In this document: piece by piece, positions 43,453 through 48,398 of the stretch
Layout: every line of letters begins with the position of its first letter
Position numbering within the stretch: the first letter of the stretch is position 1
From: Gemmatimonadota bacterium
GTDB taxonomy: Bacteria > Gemmatimonadota > Gemmatimonadetes > Gemmatimonadales > Gemmatimonadaceae
Length of the DNA stretch: 64,000 nucleotides
Assembly: GCA_027307165.1 (NCBI GenBank)
Contig: DAHUXM010000034.1
Location: 248,001-312,000 of the forward strand
Reading direction: 5' to 3'
Notes under the pieces: model-generated
What the model saw: the letters and a program-made list of their open reading frames with translations, nothing else
What the model was told of the DNA's origin: nothing
Database searches by the model: none
Position numbers and translations under genes: made by a program

Positions 43453-43784
43453 GCAAGGCTGGCGATTCGACTCGCGCGAAACCAGCGGCGAAGCGCCGCA
43501 CGCGCAAGCGGCGCGGCCGGACGATCATGGCGGCGTTACTGATCGGCTTCGTGGTCGTCGCTAGCGCGGTGATCTGGCGACGCAGCTATGGCATAACTCA
43601 GGCTCGACACATGGCCGATCTGGATCGTCGCATCGTGCAGCTGGAAGCCGAGCGTGGGCGCCTCGCCGCGCTCATACGCGACGAATCCAGTCGCACGCAG
43701 CTCGGCCCCATCGTGCAGCAACTGGGAATGCGCATTCCTGATGACCGGCAGGTCCGGTCGATCCAGCGAGGAGCGCAACCGTGA
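43434..43784 (+). CDS. ftsL: FtsL-like cell division protein
   Basis: The 116-residue bitopic protein has a basic cytoplasmic tail rich in Lys and Arg (KRRTRKRRGRTIMAALLIGF), one transmembrane helix (about 32-48) and a periplasmic coiled coil (MADLDRRIVQLEAERGRLAAL). It corresponds in size, topology and position (between rsmH and ftsI) to FtsL, which with FtsB and FtsQ activates FtsWI at the septum. Sequence conservation of FtsL is low, so the call rests on topology and context. No FtsB gene is in the window. Confidence 0.85.
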   Translation: MAKGGVSKAGDSTRAKPAAKRRTRKRRGRTIMAALLIGFVVVASAVIWRRSYGITQARHMADLDRRIVQLEAERGRLAALIRDESSRTQLGPIVQQLGMRIPDDRQVRSIQRGAQP

Positions 43785-45811
43785 AGGCCCCCGGTCGCCT
43801 CACGATCGTACACGGCGTACTGGTCGTATTCGCGCTCGCGCTGATCGCGAAGGCCGGATACGAGCAGCTCTTTCGCAGCGATTACTGGAGCAAGATCGGC
43901 CAGCGCCAGCACTACGTGTCGTCGGGATTGCCGGCGCCGCGCGGACAGATACTCGACGCCGCGGGGCGGCCGCTCGTGGAGAGCAGGGAGATGGTGCGCA
44001 TCAGCGTGGCGCCGCGCCAGGTGAGAAATCGGGCCGCCCTTGCGCGCGATCTGAAACTTGCGAGCGTCGATCCGCGTTTCGTATCGATGTCACTCGATAC
44101 GATGCGAAAGTGGGTGGACGTTCCCGGCGCGTTTCTTCCCAACGCAGTTGCGCCAGCGATCGCATTGCGCGGCGTGTATTCCAAACCGGTTATGGATCGC
44201 GTTTACGCCACGTCGGGTGGCATCAGGCGGATCGTCGGCCGCGTCGGTCCTGACGGGAAGGCCCTGGACGGCATAGAGCTCGCGCTCGATTCGCTGTTGC
44301 GCGGCGACACAGCGACGGTGCGCGTCGCGCGCGACAAGAGTGGCCGTCCGCTCGCCGCACCGGACGACGCGGATGATCCGACACCCGGGAGCACAGTCGT
44401 TCTCACGATCAATCGCGAGCTGCAGGAGATCTGCGATCGCGCGCTGGCAGTGGCTGTCGACAGCCTGCACGCCGACGGGGGCGACATCGTCGTGATGAAT
44501 CCCAACACCGGCGACATTCTCGCGATGGCGAGCAATCGTGCCGATCCGTCTGCAGTCGCGAATACAGCCGTCACGGAGCCGTACGAGCCAGGCTCGACGA
44601 TGAAGCCGTTCGTCGCCGCGCGCTTGCTGCAACTCGGCAGGGCGACTCCCGATCAGACCGTCGACACGTACGGCGGTCATCTAACAATCAACGGGCGCAC
44701 CATCACCGACGCGGACGAACACCCGTCGATCCTGTCGCTCACGGACGTGATCAAGCATTCGAGCAACGTCGGCATTGTTCGTTTCGCGGATCGGATGTCA
44801 GTCCGGGAGAAGTTCGAGATGCTGCGCGACATGGGGTTCGGAACGCAGACGACAGTTGCACTGCCGGCTGAATCGCCCGGTGTCGTGCGTGATCCCAGTG
44901 GGTGGACGCCGCAATCGGCAGCGTCGGTCGTCATGGGCTACGAAGTGTCGGTTACTCCGCTGCAGATGGTCACCGCGTACAGCGCGATCGCGAATGGTGG
45001 CGAGCTGCTCGTGCCGCACATCGTCAAGGAGATACGTGCGGCCGACGGCACCGTACGCTACGCCGCGCAACGTCAGGTCGTACGACGCGTGATGACTCCG
45101 GAGGTCGCGACGGAAGTGCGTACGATGTTGCGCGATGTGGTTGCGGGAGGAACATCCACCAAGGCCGATCTGGCCACCCTCGACGTGGCGGGAAAGAGCG
45201 GCACTGCGCTTCGCAACGCACACGGACGTTACATCGCAGGCTCCTATACCGCGTCGTTCGTCGGACTCTTTCCGGATGACAAGCCGCAATTCGTCATTCT
45301 CGTCAAGCTGGACAATCCTCAGATGGGGTTCTACGGAGGAATCGTGGCCGGAGGAGTGACCAACGTCGTTTTGCGTGCAGCACTCGCGGCGCGTGACGCC
45401 GCGCTCAATCGTGGTGAGCTCGCGTCATCCGTGCATGCCCCCCGTCCGGACACGACGCCGGCCGGAAAGGCGGCGGAGCGTGCGCGACTCGCGAGTGAAA
45501 GGAGGATCGATAGTGCCGACGTGGCGGATTCACTGCGCGAGCTGGCCCATGCTCCGCCCGTGGATTCCGATCCGCGGACAAGCGAGTCATACGTCGTGAC
45601 TCTGCCGTCGAAAACGCGCGCGATTCCCCCCGTGGTGTCGCCGCGCGCGGTGCCGGACGTCGCGGGACTGCCGCTCCGTTCCGCGGTGCGCGCGTTGCAC
45701 GCCGCAGGCTTCAGGGTCCAGCTCGTGCAGGACGCCGCGTTGCCTCTGGTGCCGGTTGCAGGAACGATGCTCGAGGCCGGCCGCGTGGTGAAGTTGGGTA
45801 TCGCACATTGA
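43781..45811 (+). CDS. ftsI: Division-specific transpeptidase (PBP3) with C-terminal PASTA domain
   Basis: FtsI cross-links septal peptidoglycan. The 676-residue protein has one N-terminal membrane helix (about 8-25), a PBP dimer domain opening SSGLPAPRGQILDAAGRPLV, and a transpeptidase domain with SxxK (EPGSTMKPF, Ser272), SxN (SSNVG, about 327-329) and KSGT (about 472-475). After a low-complexity linker the last 70 residues form a PASTA domain (VPDVAGLPLRSAVRALHAAG ... GRVVKLGI). PASTA tails on the division PBP are common in Gram-positives and rarer in diderms. ATG overlaps ftsL; stop overlaps murE. Confidence 0.94.
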   Translation: MKAPGRLTIVHGVLVVFALALIAKAGYEQLFRSDYWSKIGQRQHYVSSGLPAPRGQILDAAGRPLVESREMVRISVAPRQVRNRAALARDLKLASVDPRFVSMSLDTMRKWVDVPGAFLPNAVAPAIALRGVYSKPVMDRVYATSGGIRRIVGRVGPDGKALDGIELALDSLLRGDTATVRVARDKSGRPLAAPDDADDPTPGSTVVLTINRELQEICDRALAVAVDSLHADGGDIVVMNPNTGDILAMASNRADPSAVANTAVTEPYEPGSTMKPFVAARLLQLGRATPDQTVDTYGGHLTINGRTITDADEHPSILSLTDVIKHSSNVGIVRFADRMSVREKFEMLRDMGFGTQTTVALPAESPGVVRDPSGWTPQSAASVVMGYEVSVTPLQMVTAYSAIANGGELLVPHIVKEIRAADGTVRYAAQRQVVRRVMTPEVATEVRTMLRDVVAGGTSTKADLATLDVAGKSGTALRNAHGRYIAGSYTASFVGLFPDDKPQFVILVKLDNPQMGFYGGIVAGGVTNVVLRAALAARDAALNRGELASSVHAPRPDTTPAGKAAERARLASERRIDSADVADSLRELAHAPPVDSDPRTSESYVVTLPSKTRAIPPVVSPRAVPDVAGLPLRSAVRALHAAGFRVQLVQDAALPLVPVAGTMLEAGRVVKLGIAH

Positions 45812-47040
45812 GCGGGGCAACAAAGGACCCGATCGTTGCCGCGAAGCGCATCGAGATCGCGCGCGCCGCCGCTGCGCGTTACGGTTATCCGGGACTTTCG
45901 TTGCGCACCGTTGCCGTAACCGGGACCAACGGAAAAACGACCACTGTCAACATCCTGCGTGCGTTGCTCGATCTTCCAGTTGCGCCGGCTGCATCGATCG
46001 GAACACTCGGCGTTCTCGTCGGCGCGGAGGGCAAGCTCGTTCCCGGCGGGCTCGGCCTCACGACGCCGGGACCGGACGAGCTTCAGCGGGTTTTGCGTGA
46101 GCTGGTCGACATGGGCATTCGTTCGCTTGCCATGGAAGTTTCGTCGCACGCGCTGGATCAGGCGCGCGTATTCGGAATGAGCTTCGATGCCGCAGTATTC
46201 ACCAACATCACGCGGGATCATCTCGACTACCACGGTACGATGGAGGAGTACTTCGGCGCGAAGGCGAAGCTCATCTCCTATCTCAAGACGACCGGGATCG
46301 CAGTGGTGAACGCGGATCAGCCGGAGTGGACGTCGCTTCCGGTCGCGCCGCGAACCGTGACGTACGGAATCACCGGCGGCGACATGCGTGCCGAGGACGT
46401 CACGTTCGACGCCACCGGAAGCAGCTGGATGTTGAGGATGGGTGATGAATCGGTGCCCGTTCGGTTGCCGCTCGTCGGTGATTTCAATGTCATTAACGCG
46501 CTCGCGGCGGCTTGTGCTGCTCAATCCCTTGGCATTCCGCTCCGCGCACTCGCATACGCGCTGCGCGAGATTCCACAGATACCCGGGCGACTCGAGCTGA
46601 TTGCCCAGGAGCCGCCGGTTATCCGCGATTACGCTCACACTCCCGACGCACTCATCCGATCTCTCGCTGCGGTGCGGCCGTTCGTATCGGGAAAGTTGAT
46701 ACTCGTGTTCGGCGCTGGCGGCGACCGTGATCCGGGCAAGCGTCCGCTCATGGGCGCGGCTGCGGAGGCCGGTGCGGACAGGGTCATCGTTACGAGCGAC
46801 AATCCGCGCACGGAGGATCCGGACATGATCATCGATGAAATCGAGCGCGGGATGTCGTTACCGCACGATCGCATTACGGATCGGCGGAAGGCGATCGCGC
46901 ACGCAATCGCCATGGCCGGACCAAACGACACCATTCTGCTCGCAGGCAAGGGCCACGAGACCTACCAGGTGATCGGCACGGAGAAACATCCGTTCGATGA
47001 GCGTCAGGTAGTCGCAGAACTGCTGGGTCACGCGACTTGA
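45808..47040 (+). CDS. murE: MurE ligase lacking the N-terminal UDP-binding domain
   Basis: MurE adds the third amino acid to UDP-MurNAc-L-Ala-D-Glu. The ATP-binding motif TVAVTGTNGKTTTVNIL begins near residue 33, whereas in full-length MurE (about 490 residues) it lies near 110; the product is only 410 residues. The missing part is the first, UDP-binding domain. The rest is intact: TNITRDHLDYHGTMEEYFGA, the diaminopimelate-specific DNPRTEDP and the terminal GKGHETYQ motif. Start is a TTG overlapping the ftsI stop by four bases, and upstream is ftsI in a different frame, so the domain is not simply missed by a wrong start. Confidence 0.9.
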   Translation: MSGATKDPIVAAKRIEIARAAAARYGYPGLSLRTVAVTGTNGKTTTVNILRALLDLPVAPAASIGTLGVLVGAEGKLVPGGLGLTTPGPDELQRVLRELVDMGIRSLAMEVSSHALDQARVFGMSFDAAVFTNITRDHLDYHGTMEEYFGAKAKLISYLKTTGIAVVNADQPEWTSLPVAPRTVTYGITGGDMRAEDVTFDATGSSWMLRMGDESVPVRLPLVGDFNVINALAAACAAQSLGIPLRALAYALREIPQIPGRLELIAQEPPVIRDYAHTPDALIRSLAAVRPFVSGKLILVFGAGGDRDPGKRPLMGAAAEAGADRVIVTSDNPRTEDPDMIIDEIERGMSLPHDRITDRRKAIAHAIAMAGPNDTILLAGKGHETYQVIGTEKHPFDERQVVAELLGHAT

Positions 47041-48398
47041 GCGACGCATTCTGGACGGCTGACAGGCTCGCTCACGCCCTTGCGTCGCGAATCTCGACCA
47101 ACGCGCCGCGCGGCTCGCACGCACTTGGAAACGTGTCCACCGACACACGCTCGCTTCGTCCGGGCGATATATTCGTTGCGCTGATCGGCGATAGATTCGA
47201 CGCGCATGATTTTCTCAGGGATGCTGTTGCCGCGGGCGCGCGAGCTCTGGTAGTGAGTCGCAACGCAGCAATCGGCGAGTTCGACGTTCCCATCTACCTC
47301 GTCGATGACACGCTCGTCGCGCTCGGCGATCTTGCCCACTTCAGGCGGTTGGCGTGGGGCGGTCCGGTAATCGCAGTCGCCGGTAGCAACGGCAAGACCG
47401 GCACCAAGGAGTTGTTGCGCTCGGCGCTGGAGTCGCGCCTCGCAGTGCACGCGACGAGCGGCAATCTCAACAATCGCATCGGTGTGCCTCTGACACTGCT
47501 TGCGCTGCCCGTCGAGTCGGACGTTGCAATCATCGAGCTTGGTACGAGCATACCGGGCGAGATTGCGATATTGCGTGATATCTCGCGCCCCGACGTCGCA
47601 ATCGTTACCTCGATTGCGGAGGAACATCTCGAAGGCTTCGGCGATCTCGCCGGAGTGATGCGCGAGGAGACATCGGTGTTTCACGGTGTCGCGGTCGGGA
47701 TAGTCCCGTCGTCGGATGTAAATCTTGTGGCCGCTGCCTCGCCGCTGCGTCTGGTGACCGCAGGACTCGACGAGGGCGACGTTCACGCGACCTCCTGGAA
47801 GCTGGAGACCGACGGTACCGGGACCGTGACAGTCGACGGCATATCCATTCATTCGCCGCTGCGCGGTGCTCACAATCTCAGGAACCTGATGCTTGCGCTC
47901 GCCGCGGCACGCGAAGTCGGTGTCGGGGCGCAGGACGCGGCACGCGGCATCGCGTCGCTCACGCCACCACCGATGCGTGCAAACTGGCAGACGATCGGGC
48001 GCGCGCTCGTGATCAACGACGCGTACAATTCGAATCCCGGATCTGCAATCGCTGCGATCGACATGCTCACCGCGGCACCGGGTATGCAGAAAGTCGTGGT
48101 GCTTGGCTCGATGCTTGAACTGGGTGCCAACTCGGACCGCTGTCATGATGACGTCGCGCGCGCGGCTATCGCTGCGCCGGTGGCCGTCATCGGCGGATTC
48201 GGCGAGTTCGCGGCAGCGCTTCGACGAGTCGCTCCGGATGATGAACGGGTCGTGATTGCCGGCGACGTCGACCAGCTGTGGTCCGCGCTCGCTCCGCATC
48301 TGCAGTACGATGCCACCATATTGTTGAAGGCGTCTCGTGGCGCGAAGCTCGAGCGCATCCTCCCACACATCACCAGCTGGGCGAACCACGATTGCTGA
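47037..48398 (+). CDS. murF: UDP-N-acetylmuramoyl-tripeptide-D-alanyl-D-alanine ligase
   Basis: MurF adds D-Ala-D-Ala to the UDP-MurNAc tripeptide. The 453-residue protein has all three domains: an N-terminal UDP-binding domain (NVSTDTRSLRPGDIFVAL), an ATPase domain with VIAVAGSNGKTGTKELLRSA and TSIAEEHLEGFG, and a C-terminal domain with VINDAYNSNPGSAIAAIDML. Start is TTG 47037 overlapping the murE stop. Unlike the adjacent murE it keeps its first domain. The next gene, mraY, begins within its last codons. Confidence 0.94.
   Translation: MSDAFWTADRLAHALASRISTNAPRGSHALGNVSTDTRSLRPGDIFVALIGDRFDAHDFLRDAVAAGARALVVSRNAAIGEFDVPIYLVDDTLVALGDLAHFRRLAWGGPVIAVAGSNGKTGTKELLRSALESRLAVHATSGNLNNRIGVPLTLLALPVESDVAIIELGTSIPGEIAILRDISRPDVAIVTSIAEEHLEGFGDLAGVMREETSVFHGVAVGIVPSSDVNLVAAASPLRLVTAGLDEGDVHATSWKLETDGTGTVTVDGISIHSPLRGAHNLRNLMLALAAAREVGVGAQDAARGIASLTPPPMRANWQTIGRALVINDAYNSNPGSAIAAIDMLTAAPGMQKVVVLGSMLELGANSDRCHDDVARAAIAAPVAVIGGFGEFAAALRRVAPDDERVVIAGDVDQLWSALAPHLQYDATILLKASRGAKLERILPHITSWANHDC

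Follow-up and report, generated by a model that had tools for sequence, protein, structure and literature searches.

The 64,000-nucleotide stretch of DNA analyzed here (the window) is positions 248,001 to 312,000 of the forward strand of contig DAHUXM010000034.1, from assembly GCA_027307165.1 of a Gemmatimonadota bacterium of the family Gemmatimonadaceae. The gene murE (45808-47040, forward strand) encodes a predicted meso-diaminopimelate (meso-DAP) ligase of 410 amino acids (aa), which contains the middle and C-terminal domains of the Mur ligases and lacks domain 1, the N-terminal domain (N-domain) that recognizes uridine diphosphate (UDP). Judged by its sequence, the protein is a two-domain variant of MurE and not a canonical Mur ligase. 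The same form is found in all four genomes examined from the genus of the source organism. The MurE of this genus probably works without the uridine contacts of domain 1, a reading to which a probability of about 0.6 is given on the basis of sequence comparison, a predicted structure and analogy with related ligases.

Domain content and identity of MurE

The start codon of murE is TTG, within the sequence TTGA (45808-45811, forward strand) in which it overlaps the stop codon of ftsI. The P-loop, TGTNGKTT, occupies residues 38-45 (45919-45942) and is preceded by 37 residues. In 26 full-length relatives from the family, 110-123 residues come before the loop (start codons picked by hand within 106-125 residues of the P-loop), about 75 more than in the window MurE. 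An initial annotation of the window had rightly described this distance as far shorter than usual and the neighboring frame as ftsI, but its values, 32 residues against about 105, are replaced by those given here. The conserved pattern of the N-domain in the full-length family relatives lies around DDSR, F.AVRG and DGH. A Pfam search of the window MurE returned only Mur_ligase_M (residues 37-238) and Mur_ligase_C (260-382), with no N-domain, and TIGR01085 aligns from position 63 of its 472 positions, which bears out the proposal that the UDP-binding domain is missing. MurF, MurD and MurC of the same operon each have a Pfam N-domain.

The score against TIGR01085 is 402.1 bits (cut-off 257.3), and the equivalog model NF001126 is passed with 416.8 bits (cut-off 373); the other MurE equivalog models, with cut-offs of 476 and up, were not reached. 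The gene is single-copy and stands in the order ftsI-murE-murF, the position of murE in the division and cell wall (dcw) cluster. The protein is called a MurE variant because sequence model, position and motifs fit MurE while the three-domain architecture is absent. The score against the Mpl model TIGR01081 was 43.6 bits, compared with a cut-off of 388.7. MurT_C was not matched in the window MurE, where Pfam gives Mur_ligase_C, and no GatD gene is adjacent, the neighbors being ftsI and murF.

Distribution

All four examined genomes of the genus, which belong to different species and are 89-99% complete, encode one MurE of exactly 410 aa with the same start position, and in all four the start codon (TTG, TTG, GTG or ATG) lies inside the ftsI stop; the overlap reads GTGA in G003 and ATGA in G001. 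The loss of domain 1 is a property of the whole genus. A sequencing or assembly error was ruled out, because four assemblies of different species agree on the 410-aa form.

A profile built from the N-domain of the family matched at E ≤ 1e-17 in 163 of 179 family genomes; those without a match are the four members of the genus and 12 others. At most 29 candidates per genome were scored in this family-wide scan, so that misses are possible, while all candidates were scored in the genus. The 12 genomes (G224, G250, G252, G259, G262, G272, G275, G285, G286, G287, G288 and G300, out of 175 outside the genus) span ten genera. Nine of them fall below 83% completeness, and 11 are split into more than 150 contigs; G262 and G272 (each 93% complete) and G286 (95%) have no match despite being fairly complete. 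G285-G287 all belong to genus g30, in which two other genomes have the domain. These 12 cases may be assembly gaps or further losses. In the concatenated tree the nearest genus is g5 (100% support; nearest among 14 other family genera represented by one genome each), and 18 of its 19 genomes have the N-domain. The initial annotation had held that full-length relatives would imply a local error or deletion in this sequence. The relatives are indeed mostly of full length (163 of 175 outside the genus), but the short form is common to all members of the genus, and a local error does not follow.

In the order, a full-length MurE query matched 126 of 131 genomes, the other five giving no match to this query. 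In 122 of these the match starts no later than query residue 32; the four that begin later are G000, G002 and two cases at contig edges, G139 (ending at the edge) and G131 (starting at contig base 14). A scan of the phylum with TIGR01085 matched 137 of 140 genomes and left three without a match to this model; 133 matches start within the first seven profile positions, and the remaining four are G000 and G002, both of this genus, G176 (ending at a contig edge) and G075 (at contig base 2). Among diverse MurE loci from named genomes, sampled as the best 80 matches and not at random, all 78 that could be parsed matched the N-domain profile, and the domain was recognized by eye in the other two. 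Short MurE is rare outside the genus.

A few further loci were observed in these scans. MurE of G099 (C24:5670-6614, L159) matches query residues 3-312 only, and its 401-aa frame inside a 78-kb contig represents a C-terminal break. G063 (C72) and G148 (C9) have second, more distant MurE-like ligases that include an N-terminal part and score below the family cut-off. In Listeria aquatica (L090, frame from 3821) the murE frame starts inside the N-domain, and the first part may sit in another frame.

Search for a longer product or a replacement

Upstream of its start codon, the murE frame stays open over 98-99 codons in all four species of the genus (98 in the window), where it overlaps ftsI in another frame. 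A longer MurE could accordingly be imagined, made from an unusual start codon inside ftsI or by a frameshift from ftsI into murE. The open stretch contains no ATG, GTG or TTG in any of the four species, the N-domain profile had no match in any frame upstream of murE in the genus, and a usual start codon stands at the identical place in all four. The peptide of the upstream frame is 86, 42 and 25% identical between the window and the other three members, the two lower values belonging to the more distant species, compared with 100, 83 and 81% for MurE residues 1-36. A longer product is hardly credible on these grounds.

The initial annotation had recommended a search for a separate gene encoding the missing domain. 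The search was run with the family-specific profile, which found the MurE locus in 8/8 control genomes (E 1e-21 to 1e-39). In the four genus genomes it matched the N-domain of MurF only (E 5e-11 to 4e-10), with no separate N-domain gene. In G000, MurC and MurF were the only loci above the PF01225 cut-off. Two weak matches in that genome stayed below it: one on C8 (16 bits), which apparently overlaps with a peptidase-like frame of the opposite strand, and one on C25 (12.5 bits). The Mur middle domain exceeded its cut-off in G000 in MurE, MurF, MurD, MurC and a FolC only. No second MurE was found in the four genus genomes, Mpl (TIGR01081) was over its cut-off in none of them, and MurT_C (PF08353) was matched in 0/4 genus genomes, 0/6 g5 genomes and 2/14 control genomes. 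Within the sensitivity of the profiles, no replacement gene was found in the genus. MurB and DapF are present in all four genomes, from which the routes to UDP-N-acetylmuramic acid (UDP-MurNAc) and to DAP appear to be in place; mraY and murG are also present in the genus.

Retained domains

In the retained part of MurE, 129 columns show no variation across 18 family members, and all four members of the genus conserve 124 of them; the lost part holds 14 invariant columns. The helix before the middle domain (residues 8-24; 45829-45879) is kept according to the predicted structure and the family alignment. All positions of the P-loop are invariant in that alignment except N41, which is nearly so. 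Residues equivalent to T157, T158, S184, Q190, R192, K224, H359, R389, D413-R416, G464 and E468 of Escherichia coli MurE (PDB 1e8c) are kept, and their roles in ligand binding are presumed here apart from those of the DNPR motif, the glutamate and the carbamylated lysine. T85-T86 (46060-46065) map to T157-T158, which we take to lie on the muramyl-dipeptide side of the pocket, and K152 (46261-46263) maps to K224, presumably the carbamylated lysine of the E. coli enzyme. The DNPR motif for meso-diaminopimelate was placed by alignment and residue mapping at residues 331-334 (46798-46809). For Staphylococcus aureus MurE, the roles of the DNPR motif, the glutamate and the carbamylated lysine (Lys-219, the equivalent of K152) are described in PMC3829189.

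The predicted structure of the window MurE has a mean predicted local distance difference test score (pLDDT) of 94.7 and a predicted template modeling score (pTM) of 0.92, with pLDDT below 50 at residues 1-4 only. It superposes on residues 83-490 of S. aureus MurE with a root mean square deviation of 2.4 over 394 residues (Z 41.9). Within the genus, murE has a ratio of nonsynonymous to synonymous substitution rates (dN/dS) of 0.06-0.10, which falls among the values of the other dcw genes (0.007-0.17): murF 0.08-0.10, murD 0.09-0.16, murC 0.05-0.07 (two pairs), ftsI 0.03-0.08, mraY 0.007-0.06 and murG 0.06-0.17 (two pairs). By these ratios the retained gene is under purifying selection, and from sequence and model the remaining enzyme looks functional. 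That the gene is decaying or artefactual, with another MurE doing the work, is scarcely conceivable: apart from the missing domain nothing speaks for it, and the low dN/dS, the concordance of the four assemblies, the single MurE in each genome and the short list of proteins with a Mur middle domain in G000 all speak against it.

Evolutionary rate on the genus stem

Rates were compared on one fixed concatenated tree of 19 genomes, from which G003 was left out (its contig ends inside murD), using 381 MurE columns, all within the retained protein. The backbone of this tree is weak in places; support is 100 for the genus and for its grouping with G007. The single-gene tree of MurE left 13 of 17 inner branches open, and orthology was based on position, sequence models and identity because that tree resolved little. 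The genus stem takes up 0.059 of the MurE tree, compared with 0.028-0.039 in eight other dcw proteins; with the concatenate of these eight as reference, this is 1.84 times the expected share. The stem ranks first of 25 longer MurE branches and second of 225 gene-branch pairs. MurE has 26 substitutions that the genus has fixed and that occur rarely among 18 family members; ten of them fall within residues 1-41, and one, V90D, lies four residues past the T85-T86 pair. The fast change on the stem fits an adjustment of the core following the loss of the domain, as far as sequence comparison can suggest.

Proposed mechanism

The enzyme of the genus would still use UDP-MurNAc-dipeptide. The MurNAc-dipeptide would be gripped through domain 2, adenosine triphosphate (ATP) would be held between domains 2 and 3, and the uridine end of the substrate would be left largely free. 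The affinity lost in this way might be offset by core substitutions and by the supply of substrate. MurC, MurD and MurF keep their N-domains, so the substrate most probably remains UDP-linked. The unusual substrate mode suggested in the initial annotation would then apply mainly in the weak sense of fewer UDP contacts.

In S. aureus MurE, the uridine is held by domain 1 (residues 1-98), and domain 2 accounts for most of the ligand binding (PMC3829189). Staphylococcal MurT, which is without domain 1, is reported to have formed UDP-MurNAc-tripeptide in vitro (PMC3266927). Taken together, the two reports suggest by analogy that MurE chemistry can survive without domain 1.

Several points weigh against this mechanism. 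The reaction of MurT is given as "data not shown" in PMC3266927, whose authors thought it unlikely in vivo. Two pocket positions of E. coli MurE, E155 and N156, differ in the window protein (G81 and L84); L84 itself is invariant across 22 aligned family members. The dN/dS of murE is somewhat higher than that of murC and mraY, and dS is saturated in two of the three genus pairs. The acceleration on the stem was measured as a ratio, on a fixed tree whose backbone is weak in part, and does not amount to a formal test of selection; it could reflect either self-compensation or adaptation to a new partner.

Such a partner would be required if domains were shared in trans, MurE binding to MurF and the N-domain of MurF, or of another Mur protein, holding the UDP during DAP addition before the product passes to MurF. 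The murE and murF genes are adjacent and overlapping, both the profile of the MurE N-domain (E ~1e-10) and TIGR01085 (8.8e-20) match the N-domain of MurF, and MurE-MurF fusions are known from Bordetella (PMC6420597) and from the MurE-MurF structure PDB 8f5d; the fast change of the MurE core would also agree with it. The activities of the Bordetella fusion are, however, independent and its active sites distant, according to PMC6420597, and MurF itself depends on its N-domain for the substrate of its own reaction. MurF has no genus-wide change in 105 family-invariant columns, and its stem ratio is only 1.12. MurD has four in 110 (S55C, V114R, Y222F and V348I, numbered from 49486), and nothing in these 105 and 110 columns points to an interface. 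The suggestion that MurF or MurD supplies the domain thus found no positive evidence, and sharing in trans is considered unlikely. An obligate MurE-MurF assembly, in which the MurF N-domain holds the UDP for both ligations and the intermediate is handed over without release, is distinctly unlikely.

A switch to a UDP-free substrate, such as lipid-linked MurNAc-dipeptide or free muramyl-dipeptide, has a parallel in MurT, which lacks domain 1 and uses lipid II; its authors suppose that domain 1 would collide with the membrane. Also in favor of such a switch, G180 encodes a second MurE-type ligase that lacks the domain, next to an asparagine-synthase-like gene. On the other side stand the N-domains kept in MurC, MurD and MurF, the last of which must act after MurE, the presence of murB, mraY and murG, and the unchanged residues of the DAP site and of most of the dipeptide site. 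A switch of substrate is very improbable.

With a natural sole-copy MurE lacking domain 1, the contribution of this domain, and whether it is truly needed, can be tested directly. Domain 1 is regarded as the part of MurC-F that recognizes UDP, and attempts at Mur inhibition have included uridine analogues. The two-domain protein also offers structural studies a smaller scaffold, and it exemplifies how an essential enzyme sheds a substrate domain with the compensating changes preserved.

Comparison with known systems

Canonical MurE (PDB 1e8c, 4c12) shares with the protein of the genus the middle and C-terminal domains, the P-loop, the position of the carbamylated lysine, the DNPR motif and the place between ftsI and murF; it differs in having the uridine-binding domain 1. 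MurT, the partner of GatD in lipid II amidation, likewise has two domains, with only about 35 residues replacing domain 1, but its substrate and reaction are different, it needs GatD, and in some species it has a zinc ribbon. FolC (folylpolyglutamate synthase) matches most of the predicted structure and has no domain 1 either; it is 16-20% identical to the window MurE and acts on folate, and a separate FolC is encoded in the same genome. In the MurE-MurF fusions MurE is linked to MurF, unlike the separate genes of the genus, and the part of PDB 8f5d matched by the window MurE begins at residue 91, so that domain 1 is present there. The plastid MurE-like protein PAP11 (PDB 9epc, 8r5o) is tied with S. 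aureus MurE as the best structural match (Z 42.0; 28-34% identity) and, unlike the MurE of the genus, is by its entry titles a subunit of the plastid RNA polymerase. No report of a MurE without domain 1 was recognized in the open-licence PMC literature, a coverage outside which most subscription journals lie.

The paralogue in G180, a genome of the same class (C84:24759-25976, minus strand, L164), comprises the middle and C-terminal domains without an N-domain and thus shares the layout of the genus MurE. It lies directly after the asparagine-synthase-like gene and differs in being a second copy, since G180 also carries a full-length MurE; possibly it is part of a peptide natural-product cluster.

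Neighboring genes

The place directly upstream of murE is taken by the last part of ftsI; the whole gene (43781-45811, forward strand) encodes a class B penicillin-binding protein by Pfam, with a C-terminal PASTA match just below the cut-off. In G001, murC (C18:30153-31139, minus strand) aligns only to about residue 336 and contains a TAG in frame; the probable cause is an assembly error or a frame break. Downstream of murE lies murF (47037-48398, forward strand), with an intact N-domain by Pfam and a TTG start overlapping the murE stop. The TTGA arrangement of the ftsI-murE junction is thus repeated at the murE-murF junction (47037-47040), and the repeated overlaps suggest translational coupling along ftsI-murE-murF.
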